This document shows positions 23,905 to 45,793 of a DNA stretch of 55,624 nucleotides, piece by piece. The notes beneath the pieces were generated by a model. The model made no database searches, had not been told where the DNA came from, and saw only the letters and a program-made list of their open reading frames with translations. The position numbers and the translations under genes are program-made. The stretch is from a virus. The stretch covers positions 1 to 55,624 of the IMG/VR virus record IMGVR_UViG_3300049456_000112. One strand, given 5' to 3'. How positions within the stretch are numbered: the stretch's first letter is position 1; each line of letters opens with the position of its first letter.

Positions 23905-24467
23905 GCCGCCATCAACCGGGCTTTGGCCTCCGAGACGCCAACGGCTCTCAGAACGAATAGGATGGCCGCCGATGCGTCAAAATTTGACCCGTCGGATAGC
24001 GCGTGGATGCCGTAAATCGCGCCCAGCGCCGCGCTGGCGGCCTGCAGACGTGCCTTTGGCGCGAGAGGCGCCGCCGCGTTGATCATGGCGCCCATTTCCT
24101 TGCGCATTGGCGCGAAGTGTCCGGGCGAGGCAAACCGGAATTGCGCCAAGTTGGCAGAGCCAAGACGGCCATAGAATACCACGATAGCGGCGGTTAGCCT
24201 TTCGAGCGGGTCGCCATCTTCGGCCACGGCGCGAACGGCCGCGAGGTCGCCGGCCAAAAGATCGGCGACAACCGCCGCGCGCAGCTCGGCCATGTCCGGG
24301 AAATATTGGTAGAGCAATCCCTTCGATACATCGGCCCGCGCGGCAATCGTATTGACGGAGAGCGCCTCAATGCCGTCGCGCGAGATGACATCGATCGACG
24401 ACGCAATGAAGAGCGCGCGCCGGGCAGAGAGCCCCGCGACGACCTTGGCAGTTTTGCGATAGACCAT
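23901..24467 (-). CDS. TetR-family transcriptional regulator
   Basis: 188 residues from ATG 24467 (GGGGGA upstream). The HTH (about 8-55) has ARRALFIASSIDVISRDGIE, then NTIAARADVSKGLLYQYFPD, the TetR signature; the C-terminal ligand-type domain is Ala-rich and shorter than average. Last gene of the leftward small-gene block, so it may respond to or feed back on that block. The ligand is unknown. Confidence 0.85.
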   Translation of the reverse strand: MVYRKTAKVVAGLSARRALFIASSIDVISRDGIEALSVNTIAARADVSKGLLYQYFPDMAELRAAVVADLLAGDLAAVRAVAEDGDPLERLTAAIVVFYGRLGSANLAQFRFASPGHFAPMRKEMGAMINAAAPLAPKARLQAASAALGAIYGIHALSDGSNFDASAAILFVLRAVGVSEAKARLMAA

Positions 24468-24469
24468 GA

Positions 24470-24658
24470 TCAATCCCCCAGGTTCCGATACGGATAGCCG
24501 CACCGATCATAATATTGCTGCGCGAGGTCGCGTTCATCTGACCCGCGCGAGCCGGGCAGGGCGCACAGGTCGCGGATGAAAGACGAGAGCACCTCGCGCG
24601 GCGAGATGCCGTCATCCTCGCATTTGGCCAAAAATTCGGGCGGAAGCTGAATATTCAT
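24470..24658 (-). CDS. Small hypothetical protein
   Basis: 62 residues (MNIQLPPEFLAKCEDDGISP start), with a short helical, antitoxin-like look. It starts in the stop of the upstream gene (4-base overlap) and ends 2 bases before the TetR start. Function unknown. Confidence 0.5.
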   Translation of the reverse strand: MNIQLPPEFLAKCEDDGISPREVLSSFIRDLCALPGSRGSDERDLAQQYYDRCGYPYRNLGD

Positions 24659-24957
24659 TGCAATGTCTCCACGCGCGACGGCGCAATATTGCGTTCGATC
24701 ATCAAGAGCAGCAATTTCGCAACCGGCCCCGGGATGGAGCCGGAGGCGGCATAACGTTGCGAGGTCGCCTTTGAGATGCCGAGGACCAACGGCGCCGATC
24801 CCGCGATATTGAGGCCTAGCAATTTAAGCGCGGCCCGGTATTGTTGATTCGTCATTGCGATGGCCTCTTGCGTGGTAAAACCCTTTCCCGCGTGAGCGGG
24901 CGCGTGGTGATAGGCCGGGAGGTCGCCAAACTTCCCGGCCGCCTTGTTTTCAGTCAT
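24655..24957 (-). CDS. Small HTH-like protein
   Basis: 100 residues; an inner start at ATG 24855 is possible. NQQYRAALKLLGLNIAGSAP, then LGISKATSQRYAASGSIPGP is a helix-turn-helix with the turn at SKATSQRYAA, typical of small phage repressors. Overlaps both neighbours. Probably DNA-binding. Confidence 0.6.
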   Translation of the reverse strand: MTENKAAGKFGDLPAYHHAPAHAGKGFTTQEAIAMTNQQYRAALKLLGLNIAGSAPLVLGISKATSQRYAASGSIPGPVAKLLLLMIERNIAPSRVETLQ

Positions 24958-25153
24958 TCGATAGCCAATGCTGAACCCGACAACCCGGATTCATGTTGCG
25001 CATTGCGGCGATCACGAGCGGCAACGGCGCGGCCGTTGCGAACGCGGTCGGAACAGTGGCGGTATTAAACGCGTCGATAATTTCCGTGACGTGCGGGCCC
25101 TGATAGGTGGCAAGCCAACAATCCCGGCCCAGGTGTATCAAAATACGGTTCAT
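24950..25153 (-). CDS. Small early-type protein behind a hairpin leader
   Basis: 67 residues, mixed alpha/beta look (MNRILIHLGRDCWLATY start), no motif. Preceded by leader element L1 and an AGAGGGAC ribosome site, like the other genes of this block. Function unknown. Confidence 0.5.
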   Translation of the reverse strand: MNRILIHLGRDCWLATYQGPHVTEIIDAFNTATVPTAFATAAPLPLVIAAMRNMNPGCRVQHWLSND

Positions 25154-25169
25154 GGTCCCTCTCTATCTC

Positions 25170-25233
25170 GCGCGATGGGCCATCCATCGCGCCGGCAATG
25201 TCGCCGTTCATGTCCCGCGCGAGTCGGGACATG
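25170..25233 (-). promoter_or_regulatory. Repeated leader RNA, copy L1
   Basis: On the leftward transcript: a 9-bp hairpin with heptaloop (25233-25209), then the signature 9-bp hairpin with pentaloop AUGGC (25192-25170), then AGAGGGAC and the ATG at 25153. The first hairpin is a variant without the internal loop seen in L2 and L4-L7. Confidence 0.75.
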
Positions 25234-25245
25234 CGCCGCGACATG

Positions 25246-25584
25246 TCATCGAATCTTTTCGATCTTGCGGATTGAAGTATAGCGCTTTGCGGCCGGGTCG
25301 CCTCCGCGCGAACGGCGATTGTGCAATTCCAAATGACAGGGTCGCCAGCCGGTTGACTTACCGACAATGAAGCGGCGCGCGGCTGATTGCCCTTCCTCAT
25401 CGGAGTAGCAATCGATAACCTCAACGCGCCAGCCTTCAAGCCCCGTCAACATCGGGCATAGGCCGCTATTATCCCGCAATTTGTCCTTTATCGTCGCGGG
25501 AAGATACATCCATGTTTCCCATGTCATGCCGTCAAGCGTTTCCGGCGGAACAACCGGTGCAACCGGTGGATTGTGCCAAGCCAT
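25246..25584 (-). CDS. Early-type hypothetical protein
   Basis: 112 residues from ATG 25584, chosen because the leader element and a GAGAGGG site lie just before it. Contains WETWMYLPATIKDKLRDNSG and a C-terminal basic part with CHLELHNRRSRGGDPAAKRY. No family recognised. Confidence 0.55.
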   Translation of the reverse strand: MAWHNPPVAPVVPPETLDGMTWETWMYLPATIKDKLRDNSGLCPMLTGLEGWRVEVIDCYSDEEGQSAARRFIVGKSTGWRPCHLELHNRRSRGGDPAAKRYTSIRKIEKIR

Positions 25585-25602
25585 TGTGAACCCTCTCAAT
25601 CG

Positions 25603-25661
25603 AGGCCCCGCCATGGGGCCTTCTGACGCCTTAAGGCGGGTAAGGGTTGCCCCTGCCCGCC
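25603..25661 (-). promoter_or_regulatory. Repeated leader RNA, copy L2
   Basis: Hairpin A (25661-25635): 6-bp outer stem, C opposite UA, 4-bp inner stem, GCAA loop. Spacer beginning UUAAGGCG. Hairpin B (25621-25603): 7-bp stem with AUGGC loop. Then GAGAGGG and ATG 25584. Confidence 0.85.
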
Positions 25662-25685
25662 ATAAAGCCCGAATGATGCCCGATC

Positions 25686-26021
25686 CTATCGGATCACGCC
25701 AAAGAGCCTGCAAACCCGCGCGCGGGACGCTCCGGAAAGCGTCTTTGGGAAGTGCAAAGAGCGCGACTCGGTAATGCCCGTCTGCAGGTTCTCGCGCGTG
25801 CAATCGTTCCACTTGTCGAAAGTGAGCGACGACGCGTCGCGCGCCCTGCAATCTGCCTCGCAGAACCCGCCCCATTCGGGCCGGCTGTATTCGAGGCCAA
25901 GGCGCATTGCATCGCGCAAGCTGGCGTTCTCGATAACGAAACCGCGCTCGTCTGCCTCGCAAACTTCGTCGCCTTCGTCATGCGGAAAATATCGTTCGAA
26001 CGTGACGGAAAAGCCTTTCAT
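25686..26021 (-). CDS. Early-type hypothetical protein
   Basis: 111 residues from ATG 26021 (AAAGGGA ahead). Acidic N-terminal half (YFPHDEGDEVCEADERGF), then helical; LRDAMRLGLEYSRPEWGGFC has the look of an antirestriction or small enzyme-like motif but cannot be assigned. Third gene from the end in the hairpin-leader series. Confidence 0.55.
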   Translation of the reverse strand: MKGFSVTFERYFPHDEGDEVCEADERGFVIENASLRDAMRLGLEYSRPEWGGFCEADCRARDASSLTFDKWNDCTRENLQTGITESRSLHFPKTLSGASRARVCRLFGVIR

Positions 26022-26042
26022 CGCCGTATCCCTTTCGTGTTG

Positions 26043-26095
26043 CTGATGGCCATCATCAGGCACCGCCCTACGGTGCGACCGGGGCTTGCCCCGGT
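26043..26095 (-). promoter_or_regulatory. Repeated leader RNA, copy L3 (variant)
   Basis: Three hairpins in the leftward transcript: 7-bp ACCGGGG/CCCCGGT (26095-26078), 6-bp GCACCG/CGGTGC (26076-26060), and the signature hairpin CUGAUG-AUGGC-CAUCAG (26059-26043). Then CGAAAGGGA and ATG 26021. The first two replace the standard hairpin A. Confidence 0.75.
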
Positions 26096-26104
26096 TTCGG
26101 CCTC

Positions 26105-26767
26105 TCAATCCTCCCGAACAAGCGAAGGGGTATCGGTCGCGAATTGAAGGAAATAATCGCCCCAATCAACATCGCACAGCTTGCCATCTCCGAACACCCG
26201 CACGACAACGCCACGGCGACGGGCGCAATCGGCGCGACCGGCTTCTGTCGTGCTGGTAAAGTCGCAAAAGGACTCGGTGTATCGAACGCGATTACCGAGA
26301 CTTAGGCCCGACTCGGGCTTGGCAGTGACGGCATCAACGAACGCCTTGCGGGCTTCCGGGAGGCCGATAGCGAGCGGGTCGCCTTTCGTGCGGTTGCCGT
26401 CATAGGCAAGCTTTGCGGCGACCCACGCCTTGAGCACTTTTTGGCCGGCTTCCGGGACGCCTTCGCCGTATGTGTCCAGAAAGGCCTGAGCCTCTTGCCC
26501 ATCGCAATATTCGGACAGGCCCGTCCAATTGACATGTCCGTTATCGTCAAGGAACATTGCGCCACCGAAACGGGCATATGTTGACGCCTTGGGCTTGTTC
26601 CAGACATGGCCGCGCTTTGGGTTGGTCGTCTGACTCACAAACCGGAAGCCGCGCTTGGGCGAGTATTCGAGCCAATATCGAATCTTGCACCGCAAGGTGT
26701 ATCCATAGGGATAATCGTCAATGAGGTAGGCCGACTCTGGCGAGATATGCCCTTTCAGGATTTGCAT
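26105..26767 (-). CDS. Conserved phage/plasmid protein (KGHISPESAY family)
   Basis: 220 residues from ATG 26767. The opening MQILKGHISPESAYLIDDYP and YGYTLRCKIRYWLEY...GFRFVSQTTNPKRG belong to a widespread phage and plasmid family without assigned function. A C-terminal stretch GVVVRVFGDGKLCDVDWGDY looks like a small beta barrel. Located mid-way in the hairpin-leader gene block. Confidence 0.65.
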   Translation of the reverse strand: MQILKGHISPESAYLIDDYPYGYTLRCKIRYWLEYSPKRGFRFVSQTTNPKRGHVWNKPKASTYARFGGAMFLDDNGHVNWTGLSEYCDGQEAQAFLDTYGEGVPEAGQKVLKAWVAAKLAYDGNRTKGDPLAIGLPEARKAFVDAVTAKPESGLSLGNRVRYTESFCDFTSTTEAGRADCARRRGVVVRVFGDGKLCDVDWGDYFLQFATDTPSLVRED

Positions 26768-26785
26768 GTTCTGGTCCCTTTCCGC

Positions 26786-26840
26786 GAGGCACGCCATGTG
26801 CCTCTACTGCCTTAAGGCGCGTAGGGTTTCCCCGCGCGCC
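26786..26840 (-). promoter_or_regulatory. Repeated leader RNA, copy L4
   Basis: Hairpin A (26840-26816): GGCGCG, C, GGG, GAAA, CCC, UA, CGCGCC. Spacer UUAAGGCAGUA. Hairpin B (26804-26786): GAGGCAC-AUGGC-GUGCCUC. Then GAAAGGGAC and ATG 26767. Confidence 0.88.
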
Positions 26841-26863
26841 GTAAAGCCCCGATGTGAGTCGTC

Positions 26864-27277
26864 CTATGCGGCCTTGCACCATGCCACGTTTTCGAGCGCG
26901 CCGCGCTTGGCGACCATAAGCGCCGCATAGGTCTTGTCCGCGCGCTCCTGATCGGCTCCCGTCCAGTCTCCCGGAGCTGTTGCCATGGCGCGATTGGCCG
27001 CAGCAACGGCCTTCAAAATGGCCGCGCCGGTTTGGTGAAACGTGCCACTGGCGCAATTGGGCTTGCCGACAGGGACCGCCGCGCGCCGCAATTCGCCCTT
27101 CTGCTTTTCGCGGATTGCCGCGAGTACGGCATTTCCATATCCACGGCGCGTCATGAGCGAAAACTCGGCAAACCCGGTCTTGTCCGCAAGCTTGCGGAAA
27201 TTGAGGACGTCTTTGCCAAGTGTCACGGGATATTCCGGGCCGAATGCTTCCGGCGCTTCTTTTGGTTCATGTGTCAT
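26864..27277 (-). CDS. Early-type hypothetical protein
   Basis: 137 residues from ATG 27277 (AAAGGGAC ahead). Mostly helical, basic in the middle (MTRRGYGNAVLAAIREKQKG), no motif. Between leader copies L4 and L5. Confidence 0.55.
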   Translation of the reverse strand: MTHEPKEAPEAFGPEYPVTLGKDVLNFRKLADKTGFAEFSLMTRRGYGNAVLAAIREKQKGELRRAAVPVGKPNCASGTFHQTGAAILKAVAAANRAMATAPGDWTGADQERADKTYAALMVAKRGALENVAWCKAA

Positions 27278-27296
27278 GTGTCGGTCCCTTTCTGCA

Positions 27297-27350
27297 AAGC
27301 CCGCCATAGGCTTCTAACGGCTCAAACCGGGTAACCTTTCGGTGCCCGGT
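27297..27350 (-). promoter_or_regulatory. Repeated leader RNA, copy L5
   Basis: Hairpin A (27350-27326): ACCGGG, C, ACC, GAAA, GGU, UA, CCCGGU. Spacer UUGAGCCGUUAG. Hairpin B (27313-27297): AAGCCU-AUGGC-GGGCUU, with one U-G pair. Then GAAAGGGAC and ATG 27277. Confidence 0.85.
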
Positions 27351-27371
27351 AAAAGCCGCATATTGGCGCGG

Positions 27372-27590
27372 TCAGATGTGAACGAACACGCAATCGGGAT
27401 GGACGGAGCGCAGTTCTTGGGCGTGGCGCTGCACGTCACTGATATCGACGCTTTCGCCGTGCACTTCGTATGTTGCCACGTGCAGACGCTGCAAATCGTG
27501 GTCCGGCAATTGAAACCAGCGCAACGGCCCGGTGGGCGCGACTCGGTCCCACACCGAGTCATTTCTGTAAACTTGGATAAAGCTTTTCAT
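27372..27590 (-). CDS. Small early-type protein
   Basis: 72 residues from ATG 27590 (AGGGAG upstream). Reads MKSFIQVYRNDSVWDRVAP...; His/Asp-rich C-terminal half (HPDCVFVHI end). Unlike its neighbours it lacks a leader element and follows the upstream gene after 16 bases, so those two form a pair. Confidence 0.5.
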   Translation of the reverse strand: MKSFIQVYRNDSVWDRVAPTGPLRWFQLPDHDLQRLHVATYEVHGESVDISDVQRHAQELRSVHPDCVFVHI

Positions 27591-27606
27591 GTTCCCGTTC
27601 TCCCTG

Positions 27607-27843
27607 TTAGGCAATGCGCGGCATGTCGCCATATTTGCGGTCCGGCCCGCCCTTGATCGTGCGGGACACGTTGCCGTACCGGTCCAGCTCCTGAACGTCG
27701 CAACCCATGGCGAGAACGTTCAAGAGAACCCATCGGGGCAAGGTCTTGGTGTTCGCAATGTTGGCAATGCCCTTCGCGGCCTCGTTTGCGGGATAGGCCT
27801 TGTCCTCTCCGAACACGCTCCGGATTTGGATTTGGATAATCAT
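27607..27843 (-). CDS. Small early-type protein
   Basis: 78 residues from ATG 27843 (GAGAGGG upstream). Begins with a beta-like MIIQIQIRSVFGEDKAYPAN, later WVLLNVLAMGCDVQEL. No family recognised. Preceded by leader L6. Confidence 0.55.
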   Translation of the reverse strand: MIIQIQIRSVFGEDKAYPANEAAKGIANIANTKTLPRWVLLNVLAMGCDVQELDRYGNVSRTIKGGPDRKYGDMPRIA

Positions 27844-27858
27844 GTTGCCCTCTCATCC

Positions 27859-27911
27859 GGCCCGCCATGGGCCTCCACGCCCTTAAGCCGGGTAACCTTT
27901 CGGTGCCCGGC
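27859..27911 (-). promoter_or_regulatory. Repeated leader RNA, copy L6
   Basis: Hairpin A (27911-27887): GCCGGG, C, ACC, GAAA, GGU, UA, CCCGGC. Spacer UUAAGGGCGUGGA. Hairpin B (27873-27859): GGCCC-AUGGC-GGGCC. Then GAGAGGGC and ATG 27843. Confidence 0.88.
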
Positions 27912-27931
27912 CCAAGTGCGATGTTGATGGT

Positions 27932-28804
27932 CTATGCGGCCTTGATCTGGGCCATACGTTCGGCGAGAACCCACAGGGCCTTATTCAATTTGACATCCTG
28001 ATCAATCCCGTTGACGGCGCGGGTCGTAACCCGGCGCGGGCGGTTTCCCGGGATGCGATTAATGCCCGTCAACCCGCCGCGAATGACGTTTTCCTGCACG
28101 ACGTTAAACGTGGTCCAAAGGTCGTTTGCGGTATCGTCATGGCGACGGGGCGAGAGCAACTGCCGTGGCGTAATCGGAGTCGCCACGTCCCCCGCCGCAT
28201 CGCCGAAACGAAGCACATGTGCGGCCTCTGCGAAAATTTCGCGTTCCTCCCGGGCAAGCTGTTTCTGTGCCCAATCCTGTGGCGCGGCCAAGGTCTTTTG
28301 GGCCTCGCCGAGAACGCGGTATGTCCCCTCGATAACCTTGTGCGTCACCTCGCCGCTGTGCCGCACCTTGACGCTGTCCAAGGTGCTGGTCTGGGAAACG
28401 AGCGAATTCATGCAGGCAATGCGAAAGAGCCCGGCCATAAGATCGTATGCGGAGGTTCCGTCATTTGCATTCTTGAGGAGCATTTCGCAGACGGTATCAC
28501 CAACGCGGTAGGATTCGACGTTATCGAGGCGACGAAGGCGAATCAGATGCTTCGTGAAATCGCCGCGCCCTTCGGCCCTTGCAACGCTCTGCTTAACACC
28601 AACCGGATGAAAGCCCTCTTTTGCGAGCGCGCGGAGGACCTCTATCGTCGGGATGGCGCGGAAGCGCTCCGACCGGGATTCGTGCGGCACCATGGCGAAG
28701 ATTGACGGCGCCTCACGGCGCATTTCGTCTTCGGTCAATGCCCGGGCAACATCGAAGCGAGCGGACTTGGCGTAAACGGTGCCGTTGCGGAAGTGAGCGT
28801 TCAT
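27932..28804 (-). CDS. DUF932-family phage/plasmid protein
   Basis: 290 residues from ATG 28804. The pattern VPHESRSERFRAIPTIEVLR, LRALAKEGFHPVGVKQSVAR, and the central FRIACMNSLV...VRHSGEV is that of DUF932 proteins, found in phages and plasmids beside early genes and of unknown biochemical role. Largest gene of the hairpin-leader block. An N-terminal extension upstream is open but covers the leader element and is unlikely to be translated. Confidence 0.8.
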   Translation of the reverse strand: MNAHFRNGTVYAKSARFDVARALTEDEMRREAPSIFAMVPHESRSERFRAIPTIEVLRALAKEGFHPVGVKQSVARAEGRGDFTKHLIRLRRLDNVESYRVGDTVCEMLLKNANDGTSAYDLMAGLFRIACMNSLVSQTSTLDSVKVRHSGEVTHKVIEGTYRVLGEAQKTLAAPQDWAQKQLAREEREIFAEAAHVLRFGDAAGDVATPITPRQLLSPRRHDDTANDLWTTFNVVQENVIRGGLTGINRIPGNRPRRVTTRAVNGIDQDVKLNKALWVLAERMAQIKAA

Positions 28805-28823
28805 TTGTGTTTCCCTTTCGATT

Positions 28824-28875
28824 GCGGGGCCATCCCGCACGCCCTTAAGCCCGGTAGCGGTTTCCCGCGCCGGGC
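28824..28875 (-). promoter_or_regulatory. Repeated leader RNA, copy L7
   Basis: Hairpin A (28875-28849): GCCCGG, C, GCGG, GAAA, CCGC, UA, CCGGGC. Spacer UUAAGGGCG. Hairpin B (28839-28823): UGCGGG-AUGGC-CCCGCA. Then CGAAAGGGA and ATG 28804. Confidence 0.88.
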
Positions 28876-28895
28876 GTAATGGCATGTCGAGAGGG

Positions 28896-29201
28896 CTATC
28901 CGACAGGGCGGGATTGATCGCCCGACATTTCGCACGAGACAATGCGGAACACGGCAATGCCCTTGTGGTTCAATTCGGCGACCTTGGCCCGGGTTAGCTT
29001 TTCCGCCATGCGAGCGCGTTCCATGGCGCGGCGGCATGCAATCTCGGTATCCATGGCGAAAAGCCGCGTGTGAAAATCGCAACCGTTGGCGATACGTCGC
29101 ACGGTTACCTCAAAGGCAATCGGCCTTGTTCGCCGCGCTGGCATCAGGCTTGCGCCGTTGCGGTAAGCTTCGACGGTGGCGAAGTGCAATCGGTTGGTCA
29201 T
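28896..29201 (-). CDS. Small early-type protein, first gene of the block
   Basis: 101 residues from ATG 29201. Starts MTNRLHFATVEAYRNGASLM; middle ARRTRPIAFEVTVRRIANGC suggests beta strands; then a helical part rich in Arg/Ala. Preceded by hairpin B only (L8). The promoter for the whole leftward block should lie in 29233-29390. Confidence 0.55.
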   Translation of the reverse strand: MTNRLHFATVEAYRNGASLMPARRTRPIAFEVTVRRIANGCDFHTRLFAMDTEIACRRAMERARMAEKLTRAKVAELNHKGIAVFRIVSCEMSGDQSRPVG

Positions 29202-29215
29202 GTCTTGTCCCTTTC

Positions 29216-29232
29216 GGCGAGGCCATCTCGCC
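29216..29232 (-). promoter_or_regulatory. Repeated leader RNA, copy L8 (hairpin B only)
   Basis: GGCGAG-AUGGC-CUCGCC (29232-29216) followed by GAAAGGGAC and ATG 29201. No hairpin A is seen upstream, fitting the first gene of the transcript. Confidence 0.8.
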
Positions 29233-29420
29233 TTCAATACTGGTACATCAATTTGAGGCAGAAGAAAAGAGAAATCGTCAACACGAGATGGGATTTTGTG
29301 CTGAAAGATTAATCAAAGCTTGCCCCCGATATCGTCGGAAAGGCCATGTCATGGCCGAAAGAGGCCTGAAACATCGTTCAACTCTTGAGAATGACAGAGG
29401 GGGCTGATATCCAGGAGGAC

Positions 29421-29930
29421 ATGCCAGCGCTCGACAATCCCCGCCACGAACGCTTTGCCCGGGCATTCATGAAATGCGGCCGCGCAAGCGAGGCCTTCCG
29501 TAAGGCAGGGTACAAGAGCGACAAGCCGCGATGCGTCTGGACCGCGTCGTCAAGGCTGTTGAGGCATGTTCGCGTCAAAGCCCGGATCGGGGAGCTAAAG
29601 CGGCAAATGGCCAGTAGAAACCGCATTACGGTGGATAGTCTGCTGGACGATCTGCAGGCTGACAGGGCGCTCGCAAGGGAGCTTGGACAGACTGCAGCGG
29701 CCATTCAGGCCACGCAGCTATCGGCCAAGCTGGTAGGCCTTTTGGTCGACCGGAAGGAAACGGGCAACCCGGGAGACTTCGCAAGCCTGCAGACGCGCGA
29801 CGAGGTTCTGCAGGTGCTCATGACGGAGCTAGGCGAGGATGCCGCGCGGCTGCTCTCTGCGGCACTGTCGGGCGCTCTGCCCGGGCCAATCATCGACGCG
29901 ACGCGCAACCCGGACGACACGCTTAACTGA
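29421..29930 (+). CDS. Terminase small subunit
   Basis: 169 residues from ATG 29421 (AGGAGG just before, rather close; ATG 29391 is an alternative). An N-terminal HTH-like region (PRHERFARAFMKCGRASEAF, then RKAGYKSDK) and the helical SSRLLRHVRVKARIGELKRQ segment match the Terminase_2/small-subunit family that recognises the packaging site. Unusually, the large subunit gene is 19 kb away. Confidence 0.82.
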   Translation: MPALDNPRHERFARAFMKCGRASEAFRKAGYKSDKPRCVWTASSRLLRHVRVKARIGELKRQMASRNRITVDSLLDDLQADRALARELGQTAAAIQATQLSAKLVGLLVDRKETGNPGDFASLQTRDEVLQVLMTELGEDAARLLSAALSGALPGPIIDATRNPDDTLN

Positions 29931-34868: not shown

Positions 34869-35013
34869 CCCACGGAGACCATGCTGCAGTTACCGGTTAC
34901 TTCGCCTTGTAAGCAAGAGGTCATTGGTTCGAGTCCAATCGAGGGGAAACCTTCGTAGCTCAGTTGGTAGAGCGCTTACGTCTCCGGTTTCGTCACTTGC
35001 TGGTTTCCGTGGG
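34869..35013 (+). ncRNA. Y-RNA-like unit 2 with tRNA-like domain permuted at the anticodon arm
   Basis: A 13-bp outer stem (34869-34881 with 35001-35013), TGCTGCAG, inner stem ACCGG/CCGGT, TTACTTC on the 5' side and TTCGTCACTTGC on the 3' side. Inside is a complete tRNA fold in permuted order: anticodon-stem strand GTAAGC (34909-34914), T arm ATTGG-TTCGAGT-CCAAT (34923-34939), acceptor-like stem CGAGGG-GAAA-CCTTCG closed by a tetraloop (34940-34955), D arm GCTC-AGTTGGTA-GAGC (34958-34973), and GCTTAC (34974-34979). CTTGTAA before the T arm equals a Thr(UGU) anticodon loop, hinting at origin from tRNA-Thr. Bacterial YrlA-type Y RNAs are known to carry tRNA-mimic modules. Confidence 0.88.
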
Positions 35014-35126: not shown

Positions 35127-35285
35127 GATCTCTATGGGGCCGATGCTGCAGAAGACAGATACTTCTCCCCGCCAATGGGGAGGTAGCTCAACGGGTAGAG
35201 CGCCGGATTTCCAAATCCGGAGATGAGGGTTCGAATCCCTTCTCAAAGCTTCTGTCTCCGACACTTGCTCGGCCCCATAGAGATC
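35127..35285 (+). ncRNA. Y-RNA-like unit 4 carrying a circularly permuted tRNA with CCA in the loop
   Basis: A perfect 17-bp outer stem (35127-35143 with 35269-35285), TGCTGCAG, inner stem AGACAG/CTGTCT, TACTTC and 3' CCGACACTTGC. Inside, the acceptor 3' strand CTCCCC plus GCCA (35165-35174) comes first, two bases follow, then the acceptor 5' strand GGGGAG (35177), D arm GCTC/GAGC (35186-35201), anticodon arm CCGGA-N8-TCCGG (35203-35220) and T arm GAGGG-TTCGAAT-CCCTT (35225-35241). That is a tRNA opened between T arm and acceptor stem, with its 3' CCA joined to its 5' end. The anticodon loop has 8 bases (TTTCCAAA), so decoding is doubtful. Confidence 0.88.
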
Positions 35286-35325: not shown

Positions 35326-36642
35326 ATGGCCCAGATCAACGTCGCCAACAAAAATAACGAAAAGACCCACGAGGGCGCGCCCGCGTTCGGGCATCTGACG
35401 CCGATGCAGTCCCTGCGCCGATCGGTCATGTCCTGCCTCCTATGGGAGGACGAGTTCTACGAAGATGGGAAGACGATCGCCGATCGCATTGTCGAGACGG
35501 CGAAGGTCTGCCCGTCCGCCGATGTCGCCGCGCTCGCGATAGAGGCGCGCAAGGTCATGCACCTGCGCCATGTCCCGCTTCTTCTCCTGCGCGCCCTGGT
35601 GCGCACCGCGCCGCACCTTGTTGCGGAGACGATGCCGCGCGTGATCTCCCGCGCCGATGAGATGGGCGAGTTTCTCTCGCTCTACCTTGCGACCAACGAT
35701 GGCCGCCGGACCTTCCCGCGCCAGATGCGTCTTGGTCTCGGCCGCGCCATGGCCGGCTTCGACGAATATGCGCTCGCGAAGTACGATCGCGATGGCAAGG
35801 TGAAGCTGCGCGACGTCCTGCGCATTGCCCGGCCGAAGCCGTTTGGCCCGGAGCAGTCCGCGCTGTGGAAGCGCGCCGTCACGCGGACGCTCGCGACTCC
35901 CGACACGTGGGAGGTCGCGCTCTCTGGCGGCAAGGACAAGAAGGAGACGTTTGAGCGGCTGCTCAAGGGGCGGAAGCTCGGCTATCTCGCGCTGCTGCGC
36001 AATCTGCGCAACATGGCAGAGGCCAATGTTGACGTCGACCTGATCCGCGAGGCCATCCTGGCCCGCCGTGGCGGCGCACAGATGGTCTTCCCGTTCCGCT
36101 ATGTCGCCGCCGCGCGTGTTGCGCCGATGCACGAGCCGCAGCTCGATATCGCATTGCAGGCGGCGATTGCCGAGCTGCCGGTCCTCCCGGGCAAGACGAT
36201 TGTCCTGATCGACGTCTCCGGCTCCATGGACCATGCGATGTCCAGGAAATCGGACATGAAGCGGATCGATGCGGCGGCGGCGCTCGGGGCGATCGTCCAT
36301 GGCGACATCCGACTCTTCACGTTCTCTGATCTCCTTCGCGAGATTCCGCCACGTCACGGCATGGCCGGCGTCGATGCGATCGTGCGCTCGCAGCCGCACG
36401 GCGGCACCAACCTCGGCGCCGCCATCGCGCAAATTAACGCCAATGTGCCGGCGGATAGGCTCATCGTTGTGACCGATGAGCAGAGCCACGATGCGGTGCC
36501 GAACGCCTTCGCGAAAGGCTACATGATCAATGTTGCCAGCAACAAAAACGGTGTCGGGTACGGGAAGTGGACCCACATCGACGGCTTTTCGGAAAATGTG
36601 CTGCGCTACATCAACGAGATCGAGCGCAGCGAGGCGGCATGA
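35326..36642 (+). CDS. rsr: Ro60-family RNA-binding protein (TROVE + vWA)
   Basis: 438 residues, GGAG 7 bases before ATG 35326. The TROVE part (about 20-275) is a helical HEAT-like ring (VMHLRHVPLLLLRALVRTAP, KFGPEQ-like segments, RLLKGRKLGYLALLRNLRNM). The vWA domain (about 285-430) has the full metal site: DVSGS at 296-300, Thr361 in GGTNLGAA and Asp384 in VVTDEQ. Ro60/Rsr proteins form rings that bind Y RNAs on the outside and misfolded RNAs in the hole; in bacteria they can be tethered by Y RNA to an exoribonuclease. Four Y-RNA-like units lie directly upstream. Its stop overlaps the phosphoesterase start (ATGA), so the two proteins are made together. Length is slightly below the animal protein. 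Confidence 0.93.
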   Translation: MAQINVANKNNEKTHEGAPAFGHLTPMQSLRRSVMSCLLWEDEFYEDGKTIADRIVETAKVCPSADVAALAIEARKVMHLRHVPLLLLRALVRTAPHLVAETMPRVISRADEMGEFLSLYLATNDGRRTFPRQMRLGLGRAMAGFDEYALAKYDRDGKVKLRDVLRIARPKPFGPEQSALWKRAVTRTLATPDTWEVALSGGKDKKETFERLLKGRKLGYLALLRNLRNMAEANVDVDLIREAILARRGGAQMVFPFRYVAAARVAPMHEPQLDIALQAAIAELPVLPGKTIVLIDVSGSMDHAMSRKSDMKRIDAAAALGAIVHGDIRLFTFSDLLREIPPRHGMAGVDAIVRSQPHGGTNLGAAIAQINANVPADRLIVVTDEQSHDAVPNAFAKGYMINVASNKNGVGYGKWTHIDGFSENVLRYINEIERSEAA

Positions 36643-37909: not shown

Positions 37910-38248
37910 CTACATCAACTCGATCAGCTTGCGCGCCCGCCCACGGTGTACCTCGCGCTGCTCCTCGGTATAGAACCGCTCATCGTCCCAGGCGCCGCCA
38001 TTGTAGGTCTCGGCCATGAACTTGGCGACGCGCTCAACATCGGCGGTCTCGCGCCCCTCCCAAAGCTTACTGAGCGCATCCGCAAGCAGGTTGCAGCGCT
38101 CGTTCGCGTCCCGATTGCGGGGCTCGCTCAGGCAGAGGAGCGCAAACTGCATGCCGCCAGGGCCGCTGAGGGTGACCCGATTGGTGTCCGGGTTGGGATG
38201 ATAGCTCAGTAATGTTTTCGTGCAGTAAAATGCTGGCAGTTTGCTCAT
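37910..38248 (-). CDS. Last gene of the sugar operon, function unknown
   Basis: 112 residues, with ATGA overlap to the synthase upstream. Soluble, alp/beta look: MSKLPAFYCTKTLLSYHPNP, GPGGMQFALLCLSEPRNRDA, then helical. No sugar-enzyme motif; the NRDANERCNLLADAL stretch resembles small phage proteins. Its co-translation with the operon is clear, its role not. Confidence 0.55.
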   Translation of the reverse strand: MSKLPAFYCTKTLLSYHPNPDTNRVTLSGPGGMQFALLCLSEPRNRDANERCNLLADALSKLWEGRETADVERVAKFMAETYNGGAWDDERFYTEEQREVHRGRARKLIELM

Positions 38249-39276
38249 GATGCGATCATCTCAAATGTCATTGGTTCGCCACGCGCGATATCGCGAGCCG
38301 CGCTCTTGCCAAGGAACATGTCAATCGCCGATGGGCGGGCGCCGTGTCCTGGCCGAATAGAGCGCACGGTCTCTTTCGTAAATACCTCGCCGGCCGCTAT
38401 GTCGGCAACGGCAAAAAGGCTCCGTCGCAGGGCTCTGTGGACATCTTCCGCAACGTGCTCTGGCGGCGGCTGCATCGCGGCCCAGGTGTCGTAAACACTC
38501 TCGGCCATGTTGGGAAATGACGTGTCATCGAGCGAGAATGCCGAGTCCTCGGTTTCCGGATGATGAAACGCGCGGAAATGCTTCTCTATAATGCAGGCAC
38601 CGAGCGCCGTGGCTGCGATCGGGATCAACGTGCCGCTGCTGTGATCGGAGAGGCCATCGATGAAGCCATACTTCACGCCGAACTTCAATCGCAAAAGGTT
38701 GGCCTCGTTGAACGGTGTCGGATAGGCCGAAACGCAGTGGAGCATGGCGTGCTGATTGAACCGGTGCGGCTCCAACGCCCGCGCGGCCTCGTTGATCTCG
38801 GCCCCGCTTGCCATGCCGGTGCTTAAAATGACCGGCACGCCGAGGCCGGCGGCATAGGCGATGAGCGGCGTATCGGTGATCTCAAAGGATGCGATCTTGA
38901 CGGCCGGCGCAGAAAGCTCGCGCATCAGATCGACCGAGGTCTCGTCGAAGACCGAGGCAAACCATGTGATGCCGACCTCTTCGGCCTTCTCCTTGATCTT
39001 CGGAAACCAGTCGAACGGCGTTTGCGTCAGGGAATAGAGTTCAAACAGGTTGCGGCCCTTCCACGGCCCCTCCCAAATGAAGAACTCGTCCCTGTCGCAA
39101 TTCAGGGTAATCGTCTCCGGCGTCACTGCCTGAAATTTAACCGCCTCGGCACCGCAGAGCTTCGCAAGCTCGATCAACTCCAATGCGCGATCGAGACTTC
39201 CGCCATGGTTACACGAGATTTCCGCGATGATGTAGGGCGGATGACGGTACCCGATCTCTCGTCCGGCGATGTTCAT
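38245..39276 (-). CDS. pseI: Nonulosonic acid synthase (PseI/NeuB family)
   Basis: 343 residues from ATG 39276, sharing a base with the upstream stop. The TIM-barrel (about 1-275) has IIAEISCNHGGSLDRALELI, AVKFQAVTPET, ILSTGMAS and IEKHF, the metal and phosphoenolpyruvate-binding motifs of NeuB-type enzymes; the C-terminal SAF antifreeze-like domain (about 285-343) has RRSLFAVADIAAGEVFTKET. Condenses a 6-carbon amino sugar with phosphoenolpyruvate to a 9-carbon acid. Residues favour the pseudaminic-acid (PseI) branch, but legionaminic acid is possible. Confidence 0.9.
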   Translation of the reverse strand: MNIAGREIGYRHPPYIIAEISCNHGGSLDRALELIELAKLCGAEAVKFQAVTPETITLNCDRDEFFIWEGPWKGRNLFELYSLTQTPFDWFPKIKEKAEEVGITWFASVFDETSVDLMRELSAPAVKIASFEITDTPLIAYAAGLGVPVILSTGMASGAEINEAARALEPHRFNQHAMLHCVSAYPTPFNEANLLRLKFGVKYGFIDGLSDHSSGTLIPIAATALGACIIEKHFRAFHHPETEDSAFSLDDTSFPNMAESVYDTWAAMQPPPEHVAEDVHRALRRSLFAVADIAAGEVFTKETVRSIRPGHGARPSAIDMFLGKSAARDIARGEPMTFEMIAS

Positions 39277-39449
39277 CAAAGCTGCTCCAGAAGAAGTTCG
39301 GCCAGACGCTTGGCCAGATGGTAGATATCGATGCTCTTGAGATCGTCCGGGACAGAGAGCATGGCCACCTTATGACCGAACGTCTTTTCCGCCTCCGGCG
39401 ACATGATGATGTTGTCCCGAGGGTCGTAAATCACATGGATTTTCGGCAT
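39276..39449 (-). CDS. 57-residue protein in the sugar operon
   Basis: Short frame MPKIHVIYDPRDNIIMSPEA... ending LAKRLAELLLEQL. It starts right after the aminotransferase stop and shares a base with the synthase start. Alpha/beta look; function unknown. Its tight fit in the operon supports it. Confidence 0.6.
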   Translation of the reverse strand: MPKIHVIYDPRDNIIMSPEAEKTFGHKVAMLSVPDDLKSIDIYHLAKRLAELLLEQL

Positions 39450-40571
39450 TCATAGCACCTCCTCCGCAGCCTTCTTGAACGCATCCCCGATCATTTTGAT
39501 CTGCGCGTCGGTCGGGCTCCAGGCGCAGTTTTCGAAATAGAAGAGCCGGTTATCATGCAGGTCCTCGGCCACAGGGCAGGCCCGCGCGTGCTTCTTGAAC
39601 GGCGCATTGCGATAGAGCGGCGCCTGATATCCTTCGACAATCGGCACGCCGGCCGCGCGCAGGTTCGCGCAGAAGAATCGGCGTCGCTTCTCAATCAGGA
39701 ACGGGATGGTGTAATACACGTGCGTGCAGCCCCGTTTGACAATCGGCGGGCGGATGCCGGGGATGTCGCCGATCGCCGAGATGATGGCCTCGGCCTGCGC
39801 AATGCGCCCGTTGATGATCTCCCGGCCGCGAGAAAGCTGAACCAGAGCAATCGCCGCGCAGACCTCTGGCATGCGCAGGTTCAATCCAAGCTCGCCGCCG
39901 ATCTCGCCGTGGTTGATGAAGTCTCGCATGGCCATGGCGAGATGCTCATCGTCCGTCGTTATCATCCCGCCTTCGCCGCACTGGATCGGCTTGTGCACAT
40001 TGAGCGACCAGACGCCGATCGTGCCCATGGTACCGACATGGCGGCCATGGGCCATGGCAAACGGCGACTGCGCATTGTCCTCGATCAGATAGACCGGGTT
40101 GCGGCGGCCCAAGCTCCATTCATTTCTGCCGAGATCGCAGGGATGGCCGAACAGGTTGGTGCTAAAAATCGCCCGCGTGCTCTCCGGCATTGGCGGGCAG
40201 ACGAGGCCGAACGTCTCATCTTCGACATCGACGAAGAATGGCGTCGCCTTCGTAAACATCGGCGCGGCAGCCGTGGCGCTCATGGTCATCGCGGAGACGG
40301 CAAATCTGTCGCCGAATCCGAGATCGATGGCAAAGGCGGCGGCCAGGAGGCCCGAGGTTGCGCTATTGCAGGCGATGGCGTGCGCCACATCGAAGGTTTC
40401 GCACCAAGCAGATTCGAGCGCGCGTACATATGTGCCGCCATCGAATTTGCCGGCGAGATAGCCGGAGAGCGGGGCATGGCCGCTGGTACACATCGCCAAG
40501 GCGGTAAGGTTGCCGACCATATTCCGCTCTTCAAGGCCGATTCCATTGAACGGCAGGATTGGCCCCATCAT
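39450..40571 (-). CDS. DegT/DnrJ/EryC1-type sugar aminotransferase (PseC-like)
   Basis: 373 residues from ATG 40571 (or the next codon). Fold-type I PLP enzyme: substrate part with CNSATSGLLAAAFAIDLGFG, the ligand VYLIEDNAQS, and Lys194 in NVHKPIQCGEGGMI, the usual PLP-lysine position of the DegT family. It would add an amino group to a 4-keto sugar made by the dehydratase. Tail half resembles the family. It abuts the small gene downstream. Confidence 0.88.
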   Translation of the reverse strand: MMGPILPFNGIGLEERNMVGNLTALAMCTSGHAPLSGYLAGKFDGGTYVRALESAWCETFDVAHAIACNSATSGLLAAAFAIDLGFGDRFAVSAMTMSATAAAPMFTKATPFFVDVEDETFGLVCPPMPESTRAIFSTNLFGHPCDLGRNEWSLGRRNPVYLIEDNAQSPFAMAHGRHVGTMGTIGVWSLNVHKPIQCGEGGMITTDDEHLAMAMRDFINHGEIGGELGLNLRMPEVCAAIALVQLSRGREIINGRIAQAEAIISAIGDIPGIRPPIVKRGCTHVYYTIPFLIEKRRRFFCANLRAAGVPIVEGYQAPLYRNAPFKKHARACPVAEDLHDNRLFYFENCAWSPTDAQIKMIGDAFKKAAEEVL

Positions 40572-40747
40572 TTCAGCACACAGAAAGCACGTATTTTGCT
40601 GTCTGAGATTTCCCATGCCCTTGCCTGCGCACGCATGACATCCGCCGCCTTCTCGCAGCGATCGACGCTTGTAAATTCCGTCACCGAGATGATGGGGCCG
40701 GACACGTACCCGCCCATCCAGGTCATCACGAATAGGACCGCAATCAT
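40568..40747 (-). CDS. Small exported or membrane-anchored protein
   Basis: 59 residues; N-terminal hydrophobic stretch MIAVLFVMTWMGGYVSGPII could be a signal anchor, followed by a soluble part with two Cys (VDRCEKAAD and FCVLK). Overlaps by 4 bases with the acetyltransferase and by 1-4 bases with the aminotransferase. Function unknown. Confidence 0.55.
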   Translation of the reverse strand: MIAVLFVMTWMGGYVSGPIISVTEFTSVDRCEKAADVMRAQARAWEISDSKIRAFCVLK

Positions 40748-41199
40748 GGTGCTGCTTCCTTGCGATAGTAGACAAACTGGTCGTCGCCGCCGGGCATCCT
40801 ACGGAAGCCGCAGCGCTCAAACACTCGGCGCGAGGGATCGTTGTGCGTTCTAATGGTCGCCTTCAGGGTAAACTCCGACATCAGCGCGCAGGCATCGTCC
40901 AAAATGGTCGCCGCGAGTCCCTTGCCGCGCCATCGCGGCGCGAGCGTTATGGAGACCTCGTAAACCATGACATCATCCCGCGCCGCGTCGAAGCGGACGA
41001 CGCCATAATTGCCGTAATCGCTCTCGGCAATGAGGACCCGGTGCTGCGGGTAGCCGTTCTGGACGTTGAACTGCATCCAATGGTCATGGTTTTCGCGCAG
41101 GACAGGAAGCGTGCTTCTAAACGCCGCCCGTGTCACCGGATCGTTGCGCCAGGAGAAAAGCTCGTCGGAATCGCGCATGGTGGCAGGACGGAGCTGCAT
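40744..41199 (-). CDS. GNAT acetyltransferase (PseH/RimJ-like)
   Basis: 151 residues. GNAT fold: MQLRPATMRDSDELFSWRND start (the PseH/RimJ type), coenzyme-A loop APRWRGKGLAATIL, and a later NDPSRRVFERCGFRRM. In a nonulosonate pathway it would N-acetylate the amino sugar. The start shares a base with the upstream stop. Confidence 0.85.
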   Translation of the reverse strand: MQLRPATMRDSDELFSWRNDPVTRAAFRSTLPVLRENHDHWMQFNVQNGYPQHRVLIAESDYGNYGVVRFDAARDDVMVYEVSITLAPRWRGKGLAATILDDACALMSEFTLKATIRTHNDPSRRVFERCGFRRMPGGDDQFVYYRKEAAP

Positions 41200-41870
41200 C
41201 AGCGGACAATGCTCCGCATGGTCATGAAGGCCTCGGCGGCATGGACGCCGCAGGCAAAACCGCGCGATTCCATGAGTGCGGTGACCGCATCATAGCATCG
41301 GGCGTGCGGCCGACGGCGCATCTCGGTATCGTAGCATTGCAGGGCCTCGAATTTCTTTCCGCGCGCCGTCTTTTCACCGGCCATAACATCGATGTCCACG
41401 AAGTGGTTCGGCACAAAGCCGCAGCCCCATTCGGTCGAGGACAGAACCTCAAAGGCATAGATCGCCTTGACGGCGCTCCCTGGCAGCGGCCGGAACGCGG
41501 TCATCACGGCGCGGTTGACGATCTGGTGATCGAGATTGAGATCGCCGGCATGGTGGGTATAGACGATTGTCGGGATGACCGAGAGGGCATGCAGCTCGAT
41601 CAGTTTGGTGATGTCCAAGAGTGCGAGCTGGTCCAACCTTTGGTCACTAAAATCGAGAAAGACCGGCGGCTTGGCGCCGAGCAGCTTAGCCGCCTCGTAT
41701 GCCATGAAATTCCGGTTCGGCCGCGCCTTCATGCCGCGCGCGGTCTCGCCATCGGCGACGAAGAGCAGATGCACGTCATCACCCTCGGCGACATGCCGGG
41801 CGATGGTGCCGCCGCAGCCGAGAACCTCGTCATCTGGGTGGGCGGCAACGATAAGGACGCGCTCGGTCAT
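41199..41870 (-). CDS. PIG-L-family deacetylase
   Basis: 223 residues from ATG 41870. HPDDE at 11-15 (zinc ligands) and YTHHAGDLNLDHQ later are the PIG-L signature. Such enzymes remove acetyl groups from sugar amines. In a pathway with two acetyltransferases this suggests a re-tailored N-acyl group, for example acetyl exchanged for another group. Coupled to its neighbours by short overlaps. Confidence 0.88.
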   Translation of the reverse strand: MTERVLIVAAHPDDEVLGCGGTIARHVAEGDDVHLLFVADGETARGMKARPNRNFMAYEAAKLLGAKPPVFLDFSDQRLDQLALLDITKLIELHALSVIPTIVYTHHAGDLNLDHQIVNRAVMTAFRPLPGSAVKAIYAFEVLSSTEWGCGFVPNHFVDIDVMAGEKTARGKKFEALQCYDTEMRRRPHARCYDAVTALMESRGFACGVHAAEAFMTMRSIVR

Positions 41871-42064
41871 TGCCTCGGTCCCCCCAGGAAATGCCGCGAC
41901 AGCTTCCCTAGGTAATAGAGGGCGATCAGACCGATACCAAAGGCAAGCCAGCCATAAGGCGCCGTCCAGATGTAGCCGATCGCGAAAGATGCGATGACCA
42001 GACCGACGATGATGCCACATCCATCGGCGTCGACCTCGCTCCCTTCGTCTCTCTCATCGCTCAC
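41867..42064 (-). CDS. Small membrane protein in the sugar operon
   Basis: 65 residues: acidic N-terminus, then two close hydrophobic stretches (GIIVGLVIASFAIGYIW and WLAFGIGLIALYYL). Overlaps both neighbours by 4 bases. Topology only; function unknown. Confidence 0.6.
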   Translation of the reverse strand: MSDERDEGSEVDADGCGIIVGLVIASFAIGYIWTAPYGWLAFGIGLIALYYLGKLSRHFLGGPRQ

Positions 42065-42945
42065 ACCCGCTCCTCCACGTAATATCGTCGTACCATGATC
42101 TCCTCCACCCTTTCCGGTGCCACGAACGGCAGGCCCAAGGAGAGTCGGATCGTCGCATCCAGGATGTCGAACCCGGCCATTACCGTGAACATGCAGCTTC
42201 CGCTCAATCGGGGGTTTAGCTCGATGACGAAGAGATCGCCGGTCTCGCGCTCCCTGATGACCTGGATGTTGATCGGCCCCCGGAAAGCAAACAATTTAAC
42301 AATTTGTTTTGCAAGGTCGATGATTTCCTCGTCCATGGATACCTGTCCAATAATGGACACCCCCTTGGCCGCGATTCGCATGCGCGGCACCGCGAACAGG
42401 AAGCCGCCGCCCATGTCGGTAAGGACATCGACGGTGTATTCCATCCCGTCGATGAACTCCTGAACGAGGTAATTGCCGCTCTCGCGCAGCCGGATCGCGG
42501 TCATCGCGTCCCTGGTCCGGAAAATGCCTTTGCCGCCGCGCCCAAACTCCGGCTTCACGATCAGGTCGCCGTCGATGGTCGCGCGGGGCACGGTGATGTC
42601 ATGCTCGCGCAGGATACGATGCTGGACAATCTTGTTCGTGAAGTCGCTGAGCGCCCCTTGCCTTGAGCAGATGGTCTTGTCCGGGATGCCATAGCTTGGA
42701 TTTGCGAAAATCCGCAGCTCCTCGTCGAGAAACGGCAGGTAGAGATCATAATCGATCGTCTGAAGATAATTGGAGTAGCGCCAGGACTCTTCGACCGGCG
42801 GCGATTGATAGAACACGTTGCATATGCGCGCTCCCGCGCCGTGCTTCTGCCGATCATGCCCGATCACGTAATGCCCGAGCTTCTGCAAATGCCGGATGAT
42901 GCCCGGCGCCACGGCGCTGCCGGCCGCTGACATCATGATGCGCAT
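42061..42945 (-). CDS. ATP-grasp enzyme (carbamoyl-phosphate-synthase-like)
   Basis: 294 residues. A pre-ATP-grasp Rossmann part (MRIMMSAAGSAVAPGIIRHL) and the ATP-grasp core with DLIVKPEFGRGGKGIFR, LVQEFIDGMEYTVDVL and metal-binding VIELNPRLSGS. Joins a carboxylate to an amine or similar nucleophile. Such enzymes occur in surface-sugar clusters and could attach an amino-acid-like group to the sugar. A TGTCCA-N4-TGGACA palindrome (42344-42359) falls inside it. Confidence 0.85.
   Translation of the reverse strand: MRIMMSAAGSAVAPGIIRHLQKLGHYVIGHDRQKHGAGARICNVFYQSPPVEESWRYSNYLQTIDYDLYLPFLDEELRIFANPSYGIPDKTICSRQGALSDFTNKIVQHRILREHDITVPRATIDGDLIVKPEFGRGGKGIFRTRDAMTAIRLRESGNYLVQEFIDGMEYTVDVLTDMGGGFLFAVPRMRIAAKGVSIIGQVSMDEEIIDLAKQIVKLFAFRGPINIQVIRERETGDLFVIELNPRLSGSCMFTVMAGFDILDATIRLSLGLPFVAPERVEEIMVRRYYVEERV
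42344..42359. promoter_or_regulatory. 16-bp palindrome TGTCCA-N4-TGGACA (copy 3, inside a gene)
   Basis: TGTCCA-ATAA-TGGACA with perfect arms in the ATP-grasp coding region. The same palindrome at 34265 and 34721 makes chance less likely, although the coding frame may constrain it. Confidence 0.4.
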
Positions 42946-43792
42946 AGGATCGCCTTCAGCTCGTCAACCGACATGCGCCGAGCCTTGTCGCTGCTATTTC
43001 CCTCGGCCATGCTCTCGTGCAGCTTCTCCCACGCCGGGAGTCCGATGATCTTCATCTTGACCCCCATGGCATCGGCGAGATCGCCGAGACGATAGGCCGG
43101 GAGCGTCGGGATGATGGTCTCGCCGCCGAACATGCCATAGGTGGTCTCCGATACCAGGGAGACGGCCTCAGCCATCGTCATGTAGAAGCGCGTGCACTCC
43201 GGATCGGTTACCGGAACCATGGCGCCTCCGGCGAGCATCTTGCGCCACGTCGGGACCACCGAGCCGGTGCTATTCCAGACATTCCCATAGCGGACGACCG
43301 CAAAGATCGGACCGTTGTTGCCGCGCGTGTTGTTGGCGGCCAGGAAGAGCGACTCAGCAAACGCCTTGCTCGTCCCGTAGGGGCTGACCGGCTGGAACGC
43401 CTTGTCGGACGAGAGCGCGACGACCCTGCCGACGCCGGCATCGGTTGCGGCCTCGATCACGTTGGCGGCGCCGTCGATGTTGGTCTTCTTGACCTCAAGC
43501 GGGTTGTAGGCGCCGACCTCTATCCGCTTCAGCGCGGCGGCGTGAATGACAACGCCGATGCCCTCCATGGCCCGGCGCAGGCGATCCCGATCGCGGACGT
43601 CGCCGATAAAGAAGCGAAGCCGAGGATCATTGCCGAGTTCGCGCGCCATCTCGGCCTGCCTATGCTCGCCTCTGGAAAAGATAACGACTCGGGTGCCGAG
43701 GTTGCTCTGCAGCAGAAACTTGGCATATGCCGTACCGAACGCGCCAGAGCCACCCGTGATCAGGACCGAGCCGTAGGTCCCATCGCACTTGA

Positions 43793-43796
<4 letters not shown>
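42933..43796 (-). CDS. Sugar-nucleotide dehydratase/epimerase (PseB/CapD-like)
   Basis: 287 residues. Extended SDR: NAD-binding TGGSGAFG at about 14-21, ALKRIE, active-site region SSDKAFQPVSPYGTSKA with the Tyr and Lys of YxxxK. It resembles PseB-type UDP-GlcNAc 4,6-dehydratases (5-inverting) and CapD soluble domains. First step of the pathway: removes water and inverts the sugar. Overlaps the ATP-grasp gene by 13 bases. Confidence 0.87.

Positions 43797-45789
<1,993 letters not shown>

Positions 45790-45793
<4 letters not shown>

Follow-up and report, generated by a model that had tools for sequence, protein, structure and literature searches.

Leader RNAs of the start-associated or operator type, as described in phages, are the known kind nearest to the element reported here, a repeated hairpin with an AUGGC pentaloop that lies before eight genes of the virus record IMGVR_UViG_3300049456_000112 (IMG/VR). 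The whole of this record, 55,624 bases in length, was analysed and is referred to below as the window. Repeated hairpins between phage genes are in themselves familiar, as phage T4 has intercistronic CUUCGG hairpins, the loops of which are exceptionally stable in themselves, and the early region of T7 contains long RNase III substrates between its genes, without a second, loop-conserved hairpin. Two small hairpins with similar ACGR loops that dimerise make up the guanidine-II (mini-ykkC) RNA. The leaders described here have in common with it the pairing of two hairpins with conserved loops, but the loops are unlike each other: all five of the two-hairpin leaders combine a GNRA loop and an internal loop in one hairpin with AUGGC in the other, and no Rfam match at the gathering score was obtained.

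The closest likeness in position is to the start-associated sequences (SAS) and extended start-associated sequences (ESAS) of cluster K mycobacteriophages, which, in the portions of the published account drawn on here, are repeats just before the starts of many non-structural genes with a function given as unknown (PMC3203893). About half of the SAS have an inverted repeat upstream, the consensus of which differs between subclusters, and the same portions judge RNA pairing to be little supported, the arms being the conserved part (PMC3203893). The position before many phage genes is shared with the present leaders, in which, however, it is the loop that is conserved, whilst the arms change with full compensation; there is no resemblance in sequence to what these portions describe, and instead of the 13-bp GGGATAGGAGCCC repeat, the eight ribosome sites, a few bases 3' of the AUGGC hairpins, read AAAGGG or GAGAGGG. 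Amongst operators, that of gene 43 in T4 and RB69 is a hairpin upstream of the ribosome site that is read by a phage protein, with loop bases that matter most and differ somewhat between the related phages, and T4 RegA is a single phage protein that controls initiation at about 30 phage mRNAs by way of unstructured, A+U-rich sites over or beside the start codon (both from the relevant parts of PMC3014915). These two cases show that operators of this sort can serve a phage one at a time or together as a regulon. Compared with this account of the gene 43 operator, eight genes are involved here and the loop is AUGGC, with DUF932 and unknown proteins encoded downstream, as opposed to a UAAC-type loop before a DNA polymerase gene; compared with that of RegA, control of many mRNAs by one factor would be the likeness and the unstructured nature of the RegA sites is the difference, and no RegA match was present among the proteins scanned. 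Each ingredient of the arrangement has a precedent, but none was found for the combination of a lineage-specific invariant loop, covarying stems and a place before nearly every gene of a set. Nor was a description of the AUGGC leader found in the open literature, outside which lie preprints and most subscription papers, such that its absence there is no proof of novelty.

The AUGGC leaders

The AUGGC pentaloop is invariant in eight of eight leaders, all of which lie on the coding strand (the minus strand of the window), and its first base sits 25–32 nt upstream of the start codon. Between positions 24800 and 29700 we counted eight such hairpins with a stem of at least 5 bp, compared with 0.08 on average and never more than two in 200 dinucleotide shuffles, and each other pentaloop of the 1024 possible gave no more than one. 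Elsewhere, AUGGC loops on stems of 5 bp were seen at 9484 and 47095 (minus strand) and at 28139 (plus strand), whilst shuffles of the whole minus strand produced a mean of 0.81. In an alignment of the eight hairpins all 40 pair cells were standard and all five pairs had changes on both sides; as these hairpins were picked for having a stem, this percentage is partly by construction, and the fairer number is therefore the one obtained from sequence alone, where ATGGC followed by AGGG occurs at 10 sites on the minus strand of the region, with eight of them paired. The two unpaired sites are at 25651–25663, within the 5' hairpin of one of the leaders (L2), and at 27602–27632, at a gene end. Changes on both sides were found in 19 cells against 6.3 ± 1.8 in shuffles, and the covariation score was 1.336 compared with 0.272 ± 0.100 for shuffled and at most 0.369 for slid alignments, with the reservation that the shuffles do not model relatedness among the sequences. 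An earlier note on this DNA had proposed that eight minus-strand genes carry such a hairpin, with a stem of 5–9 bp, before the ribosome site, and had seen in it a selected RNA structure. The first point holds far above shuffled expectation and the second is borne out by compensatory changes in excess of both shuffle and slide controls, in the two hairpins of the leaders as well as in the second version described below. The AUGGC leaders are thus a real, selected RNA structure.

The leaders are numbered L1–L8 from low to high coordinate, as in the earlier note (L numbers of three digits denote loci), and all are on the minus strand. L1 has its AUGGC hairpin at 25170–25192 (uninterrupted stem of 9 bp, first loop base at 25183), before the gene at 24950–25153; L2 at 25603–25621 (7 bp, loop from 25614), before 25246–25584; L3 at 26043–26059 (6 bp, loop from 26053), before 25694–26021; and L4 at 26786–26804 (7 bp, loop from 26797), before 26105–26767. 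Those of the remaining leaders are found at 27296–27314 for L5 (7 bp, loop from 27307; gene 26864–27277), at 27859–27873 for L6 (5 bp, loop from 27868; gene 27607–27843), at 28823–28839 for L7 (6 bp, loop from 28833; the DUF932 gene, 27932–28804) and at 29216–29232 for L8 (6 bp, loop from 29226), which precedes the first gene of the set, 28896–29201. This set comprises nine consecutive minus-strand genes from 29201 down to 24950, with starts at 29201, 28804, 27843, 27590, 27277, 26767, 26021, 25584 and 25153, and is oriented divergently to the gene for a terminase small subunit, at 29421 (plus strand). The one member without the hairpin, starting at 27590, begins 16 nt past the preceding gene. 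No intrinsic terminator (a GC-rich stem and U tract) was detected on the minus strand between the genes of 24950–29201, the only terminator-like match on that strand in 24400–29800 starting at 24610. That these genes are early, as the earlier note called them, is an assumption; of the nine proteins encoded, one has a Pfam match above the cut-off, namely the DUF932 protein of 27932–28804 (PF06067, E-value 1.8e-37), and a search for a solved structure of a DUF932 relative returned none. DUF932 genes were also seen in phages, genomes or plasmids of several groups, beside quite different leader types.

In L2 and L4–L7, exactly the leaders named in the earlier note, the AUGGC hairpin is preceded by a second hairpin with the plan N6-C-N3/4-GNRA-N3/4-UA-N6. 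It is located at 25626–25670 in L2, with a GCAA loop, and, with a GAAA loop in each case, at 26807–26849 in L4, 27317–27359 in L5, 27878–27920 in L6 and 28840–28884 in L7. From the outside inwards it consists, in L2, of an outer helix, a 1x1 mismatch, a 6-bp helix, the C/UA internal loop, a 4-bp helix and the GNRA loop, and the other four follow the common plan. The outer helix had previously been overlooked, its 3' arm having been taken for a UURAG-type spacer; RNAfold and pair counts place this segment in the helix in all five leaders, where UUAAGG or UUGAGC (the latter in L5) is base-paired to a segment further upstream around UU(A/G/U), with one mismatched position between this helix and the N6 helix. 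In total the hairpin has 17 pairs, 92.9 % of which are formed over the five sequences and 11 of which show changes on both sides. The AUGGC arms vary in sequence, but the stems of the 5' hairpins are not all unrelated: L5 and L6 have ∼25 nt in common, within which a single compensated pair distinguishes them. As these two are near-copies over that length, and the 5' hairpins thus partly share descent, their covariation reflects few independent events. It also contains seven G.U cells, which would be A.C on the other strand, indicating that the transcribed (coding) strand is the structured one. The common plan is absent from L1, L3 and L8: other hairpins lie upstream in L1 and L3 (GC-rich in L3), whilst L8, the leader of the first gene, has the AUGGC hairpin only. 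None of the hairpins upstream in these leaders is terminator-like in character.

A second version in rhizobial prophages

A search with the DUF932 protein returned 44 viral loci and 25 loci in named genomes, and among these 69 neither the two-hairpin leader nor a repeated AUGGC hairpin was present. In DUF932-bearing prophages of Bradyrhizobium and Mesorhizobium, however, a hairpin in the same position carries the loop RAYUGU (with variants RAUAGU and AACAGU) on varying stems, for example GCGC, GGCC, GGUC, GCCC, GGGC, UGGC and GGCUC. The loci concerned are L009, L011, L013, L016, L019, L021 and L043, together with L292 (Bradyrhizobium sp. Ai1a-2), L293 (Bradyrhizobium sp. Leo170), L297 (Mesorhizobium sp. 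LSJC280B00) and L301 (Bradyrhizobium sp. C9). When sites in the 69 loci were chosen by loop and ribosome site, ignoring pairing, 58 of 120 had a stem of at least 4 bp, and these were found in 12 loci. An alignment from the plus strand of seven loci (44 sites, 43 different stretches, 34 distinct rows) had 94.9 % of 136 cells paired and 26 cells changed on both sides compared with 8.8 ± 2.0, with a covariation score of 0.566 against 0.144 ± 0.034; the innermost pair was C-G in 32 of the 34 rows. One exact RAYUGU form occurs in 60 copies on 24 stretches from 10 viral contigs, at four to eight per contig, and was found in one of 198 genomes (four copies) and in none of the other 197, with a reversed-pattern control also yielding none. 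In these 24 stretches, which were fetched by the pattern of this form and whose pairing is partly by construction, 74 of 79 selected sites pair over at least 4 bp, and the loop starts 25–34 nt before the start codon.

A common first hairpin was also sought in this version, and only four distinct forms were obtained: some RAYUGU hairpins come after a longer one, TTGCAGYY...CGGCAA, the inner helix of which is variable (L009 at 9911 and 10881, L011 at 11182 and, on the minus strand, L374 at 6426). Several genes occur in the second-version loci alone, yet these phages are related anyway. A repeated box of the type CCCGGCTACGRCYGATT, sometimes doubled, is found in the non-coding gaps upstream of RAYUGU hairpins in L009, L011, L016, L021, L043 and L370–L390.

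In general terms, what recurs ahead of the ribosome site in many phage genes is a variable stem with a loop that is specific to the lineage. The RAYUGU version supports the importance of RNA structure and moves the emphasis from the AUGGC motif to the general arrangement.

Search for further copies of the AUGGC element

In agreement with the earlier claim that the leaders belong to no known RNA family, Rfam 15 gave no match to them at the gathering score (two tRNA matches were the only ones in the whole window), and the best result of a permissive scan of the region was M23, at 22.6 bits against a gathering score of 41.2 (E-value 0.47). There were no near DNA relatives of the window among 50,697 phage records. 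The covariance-model search of phage genomes that the earlier note had suggested produced no second phage with the AUGGC leader, and for this reason a larger alignment of the element could not be built. A model of the two-hairpin leader recovered its own five members along with weak matches in L012 (E-value 0.04) and at window position 12772 (E-value 0.077); over 66 loci it gave a weak match in L049 (E-value 0.26), and in nine whole genomes, with 150 candidates scored in each, it gave nothing. When viral contigs were scanned twice by pattern, with at least 120 stretches each time, the matches listed contained no paired plan beyond the copies of the window and included two paired hits without the UURAG box (L046 and L218), and none of the 31 stretches from a stricter scan was matched by the covariance model. 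In 397 genomes of one order, a loose pattern matched 33; its reversed control performed similarly, and by eye the plan was absent.

Lone AUGGC hairpins were sought in 399 loci, with five hits that had a stem of at least 5 bp, a Shine–Dalgarno-like site and an open frame. The best of these, at 2623 in the DUF932 phage L034 (within 2611–2653), has 7 bp and lies 31 nt before the start of a frame of 170 aa; it is a single copy and may be due to chance or be a remote example. The closest relatives of the gene at 26105–26767 (L315–L317, 70–81 % identity) are without the leader. Furthermore, invariant loops seldom recur in the other loci: those on at least four distinct arms were found on 23 locus-strands in 364 loci, compared with five in one mononucleotide shuffle, and the strongest of those inspected, besides the window and the second version, lay in coding or repetitive sequence.

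Two other parts of the window are recorded here. A TROVE-domain (Ro60-like) RNA-binding protein is encoded at 35326–36642 on the plus strand (PF05731, E-value 8.8e-13; phrog_850, E-value 2.5e-44), and upstream of it, at 34915–34978 and 35183–35242 on the same strand, are a Y RNA-like match (YrlA, RF02553; 37.2 bits, below the gathering score of 69; E-value 7.6e-6) and a tRNA-like piece (RF00005, 46.8 bits, not called by ARAGORN). Judging from these matches, the two pieces probably belong to a Ro/Y module as Y RNAs of the phage. In addition, 38245–47928 on the minus strand holds a run of genes that, from their translations as judged by eye, resembles a pathway for the synthesis of nonulosonic acid or another surface sugar.

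Proposed shared translational control and its alternatives

The leaders appear to be a new repeated element without a known family, the mechanism of which would be shared translational control. As the loop is fixed, the stem free and the register constant, and as two versions exist in phages that share DUF932, the best reading is a lineage-specific recognition of the loop at initiation; that the element is a repeated translational-control site read by a trans-acting and probably phage-encoded factor has, in our estimate, a probability of ∼0.45. According to this model, the stem need only be a stem, and the loop, which is AUGGC in the window and RAYUGU in the rhizobial prophages, would be the part that is recognised, since conservation of the loop alongside a free stem speaks for recognition as opposed to stability alone. 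A factor, most likely a phage-encoded RNA-binding protein given that the loop changes between phage lineages, would bind the loop, and from this position, on the upstream border of the 30S footprint, would block or help initiation at all genes of the set together. The GNRA-capped first hairpin of the internal genes would probably separate the leader from the preceding message, or else provide a second contact. Co-transcription of the set, action in trans, phage origin of the factor and direction of the effect are all parts of the model that we infer. A different use of the loop, as a decoy start codon (AUGGC, AUUG and ACUG each hold NUG), was dropped, as the variant AAUAGU has no NUG and the frames differ by eye.

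A number of observations weigh against control by a loop-binding factor. The AUGGC version rests on one phage. When each leader was folded from 80 nt upstream of the loop to the first 38 nt of the gene, the mean pair probabilities of the AUGGC hairpin were, from L8 to L1, 0.35, 0.01, 0.62, 0.05, 1.00, 0.93, 0.93 and 1.00; single-sequence folding thus disfavours the hairpins of L8, L7 and L5, which would need a shorter transcript, folding during transcription or the help of a factor. Holding the hairpin open barely alters the computed accessibility of the Shine–Dalgarno sequence, which also leaves unsupported the idea that the hairpin simply insulates the ribosome site. Amongst the predicted proteins of the window, DUF932 alone has a relative in the second-version loci, and our scan showed DUF932 phages that have no recurrent loop of this kind (e.g. 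L006, L007 and L008). Finally, in the records compared, no RNA-binding candidate has a distribution that follows the hairpins; the TROVE protein was rejected as the reader on these grounds, as it occurs in five of 24 records including the window, in three of 13 of the second version and in one record without such hairpins.

Of the alternatives, a function in processing or stability survives best, although we consider it unlikely. Here, RNase III would cut the long first hairpin, or RNase E the message, between genes, and the second hairpin would guard the new 5' end of each mRNA, as in the early region of T7. The first hairpin, with its 17 pairs in an irregular helix and its asymmetric internal loop, would suit such a role, as would the restriction of the two-hairpin plan to internal leaders when the first gene has a single hairpin, and those RAYUGU leaders that come after a promoter-like TTGAC element have, by eye, the short hairpin only. 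Protection, however, requires a stem and not an invariant loop; a cut site could lie at any distance from the start codon, whereas the spacing is kept in both versions; and the common first hairpin is missing from L1 and L3. A constant register to the start codon and a hairpin before eight of nine genes might also be expected of an effect on the ribosome in cis with no special factor, which we regard as rather improbable: with the ribosome as reader, related phages would not be expected to differ in their loops, and the computed indifference of Shine–Dalgarno accessibility to opening of the hairpin applies here as well.

That the loop is a seed site for a small RNA of phage or host, acting by loop–loop pairing, is suggested by an invariant loop of 5–6 nt adjoining the ribosome site, but seems very improbable, as 5 nt is short for a seed and the GCCAU-loop hairpins of the window, in a survey with no formal control, were the antisense of the leaders or scattered sites, with no convincing candidate. 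There is still less to recommend a small riboswitch or ligand sensor of two loop-conserved hairpins, as in guanidine-II, even though two hairpins lie side by side whose loops are conserved and whose stems are free: three of the eight leaders lack the first hairpin of the plan, the two loops differ from each other, the copies precede unrelated phage genes and the second version has another loop. In this connection, the small repetitive hairpins of mini-ykkC were once read as a hint of protein binding, according to the passages of PMC2864571 consulted. Lastly, DNA-level or mobile repeats (operators, promoters or REP/MITE-like palindromes) are the least likely of all, for although the cluster K ESAS, in the same place, were judged likelier to be DNA-binding sites (PMC3203893, in part) and the five two-hairpin leaders have parts of the first hairpin in common, arms that vary around a fixed centre are the reverse of an operator or mobile palindrome, the G.U pairs exist on one strand only, and eight of eight copies lie on the coding strand with a constant spacing to a start codon.

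Extended beyond the present phages, control by a loop-binding factor leads to a broader proposal that we put forward with considerable doubt, namely that some alphaproteobacterial phages tag nearly each gene of one operon with a lineage-specific loop on an arbitrary stem, that a cognate phage factor switches their translation as one regulon and that the loops are mutually exclusive between phages. If this is true, it would bear on the start-associated repeats of cluster K mycobacteriophages, the function of which was open when they were described. At the level of translation, such loops would correspond to phage-specific promoters or to the specificities of repressors, and would form a compact RNA regulon, its recognition loop open to change, in which translation of a whole set of genes would be switched via one loop tag.

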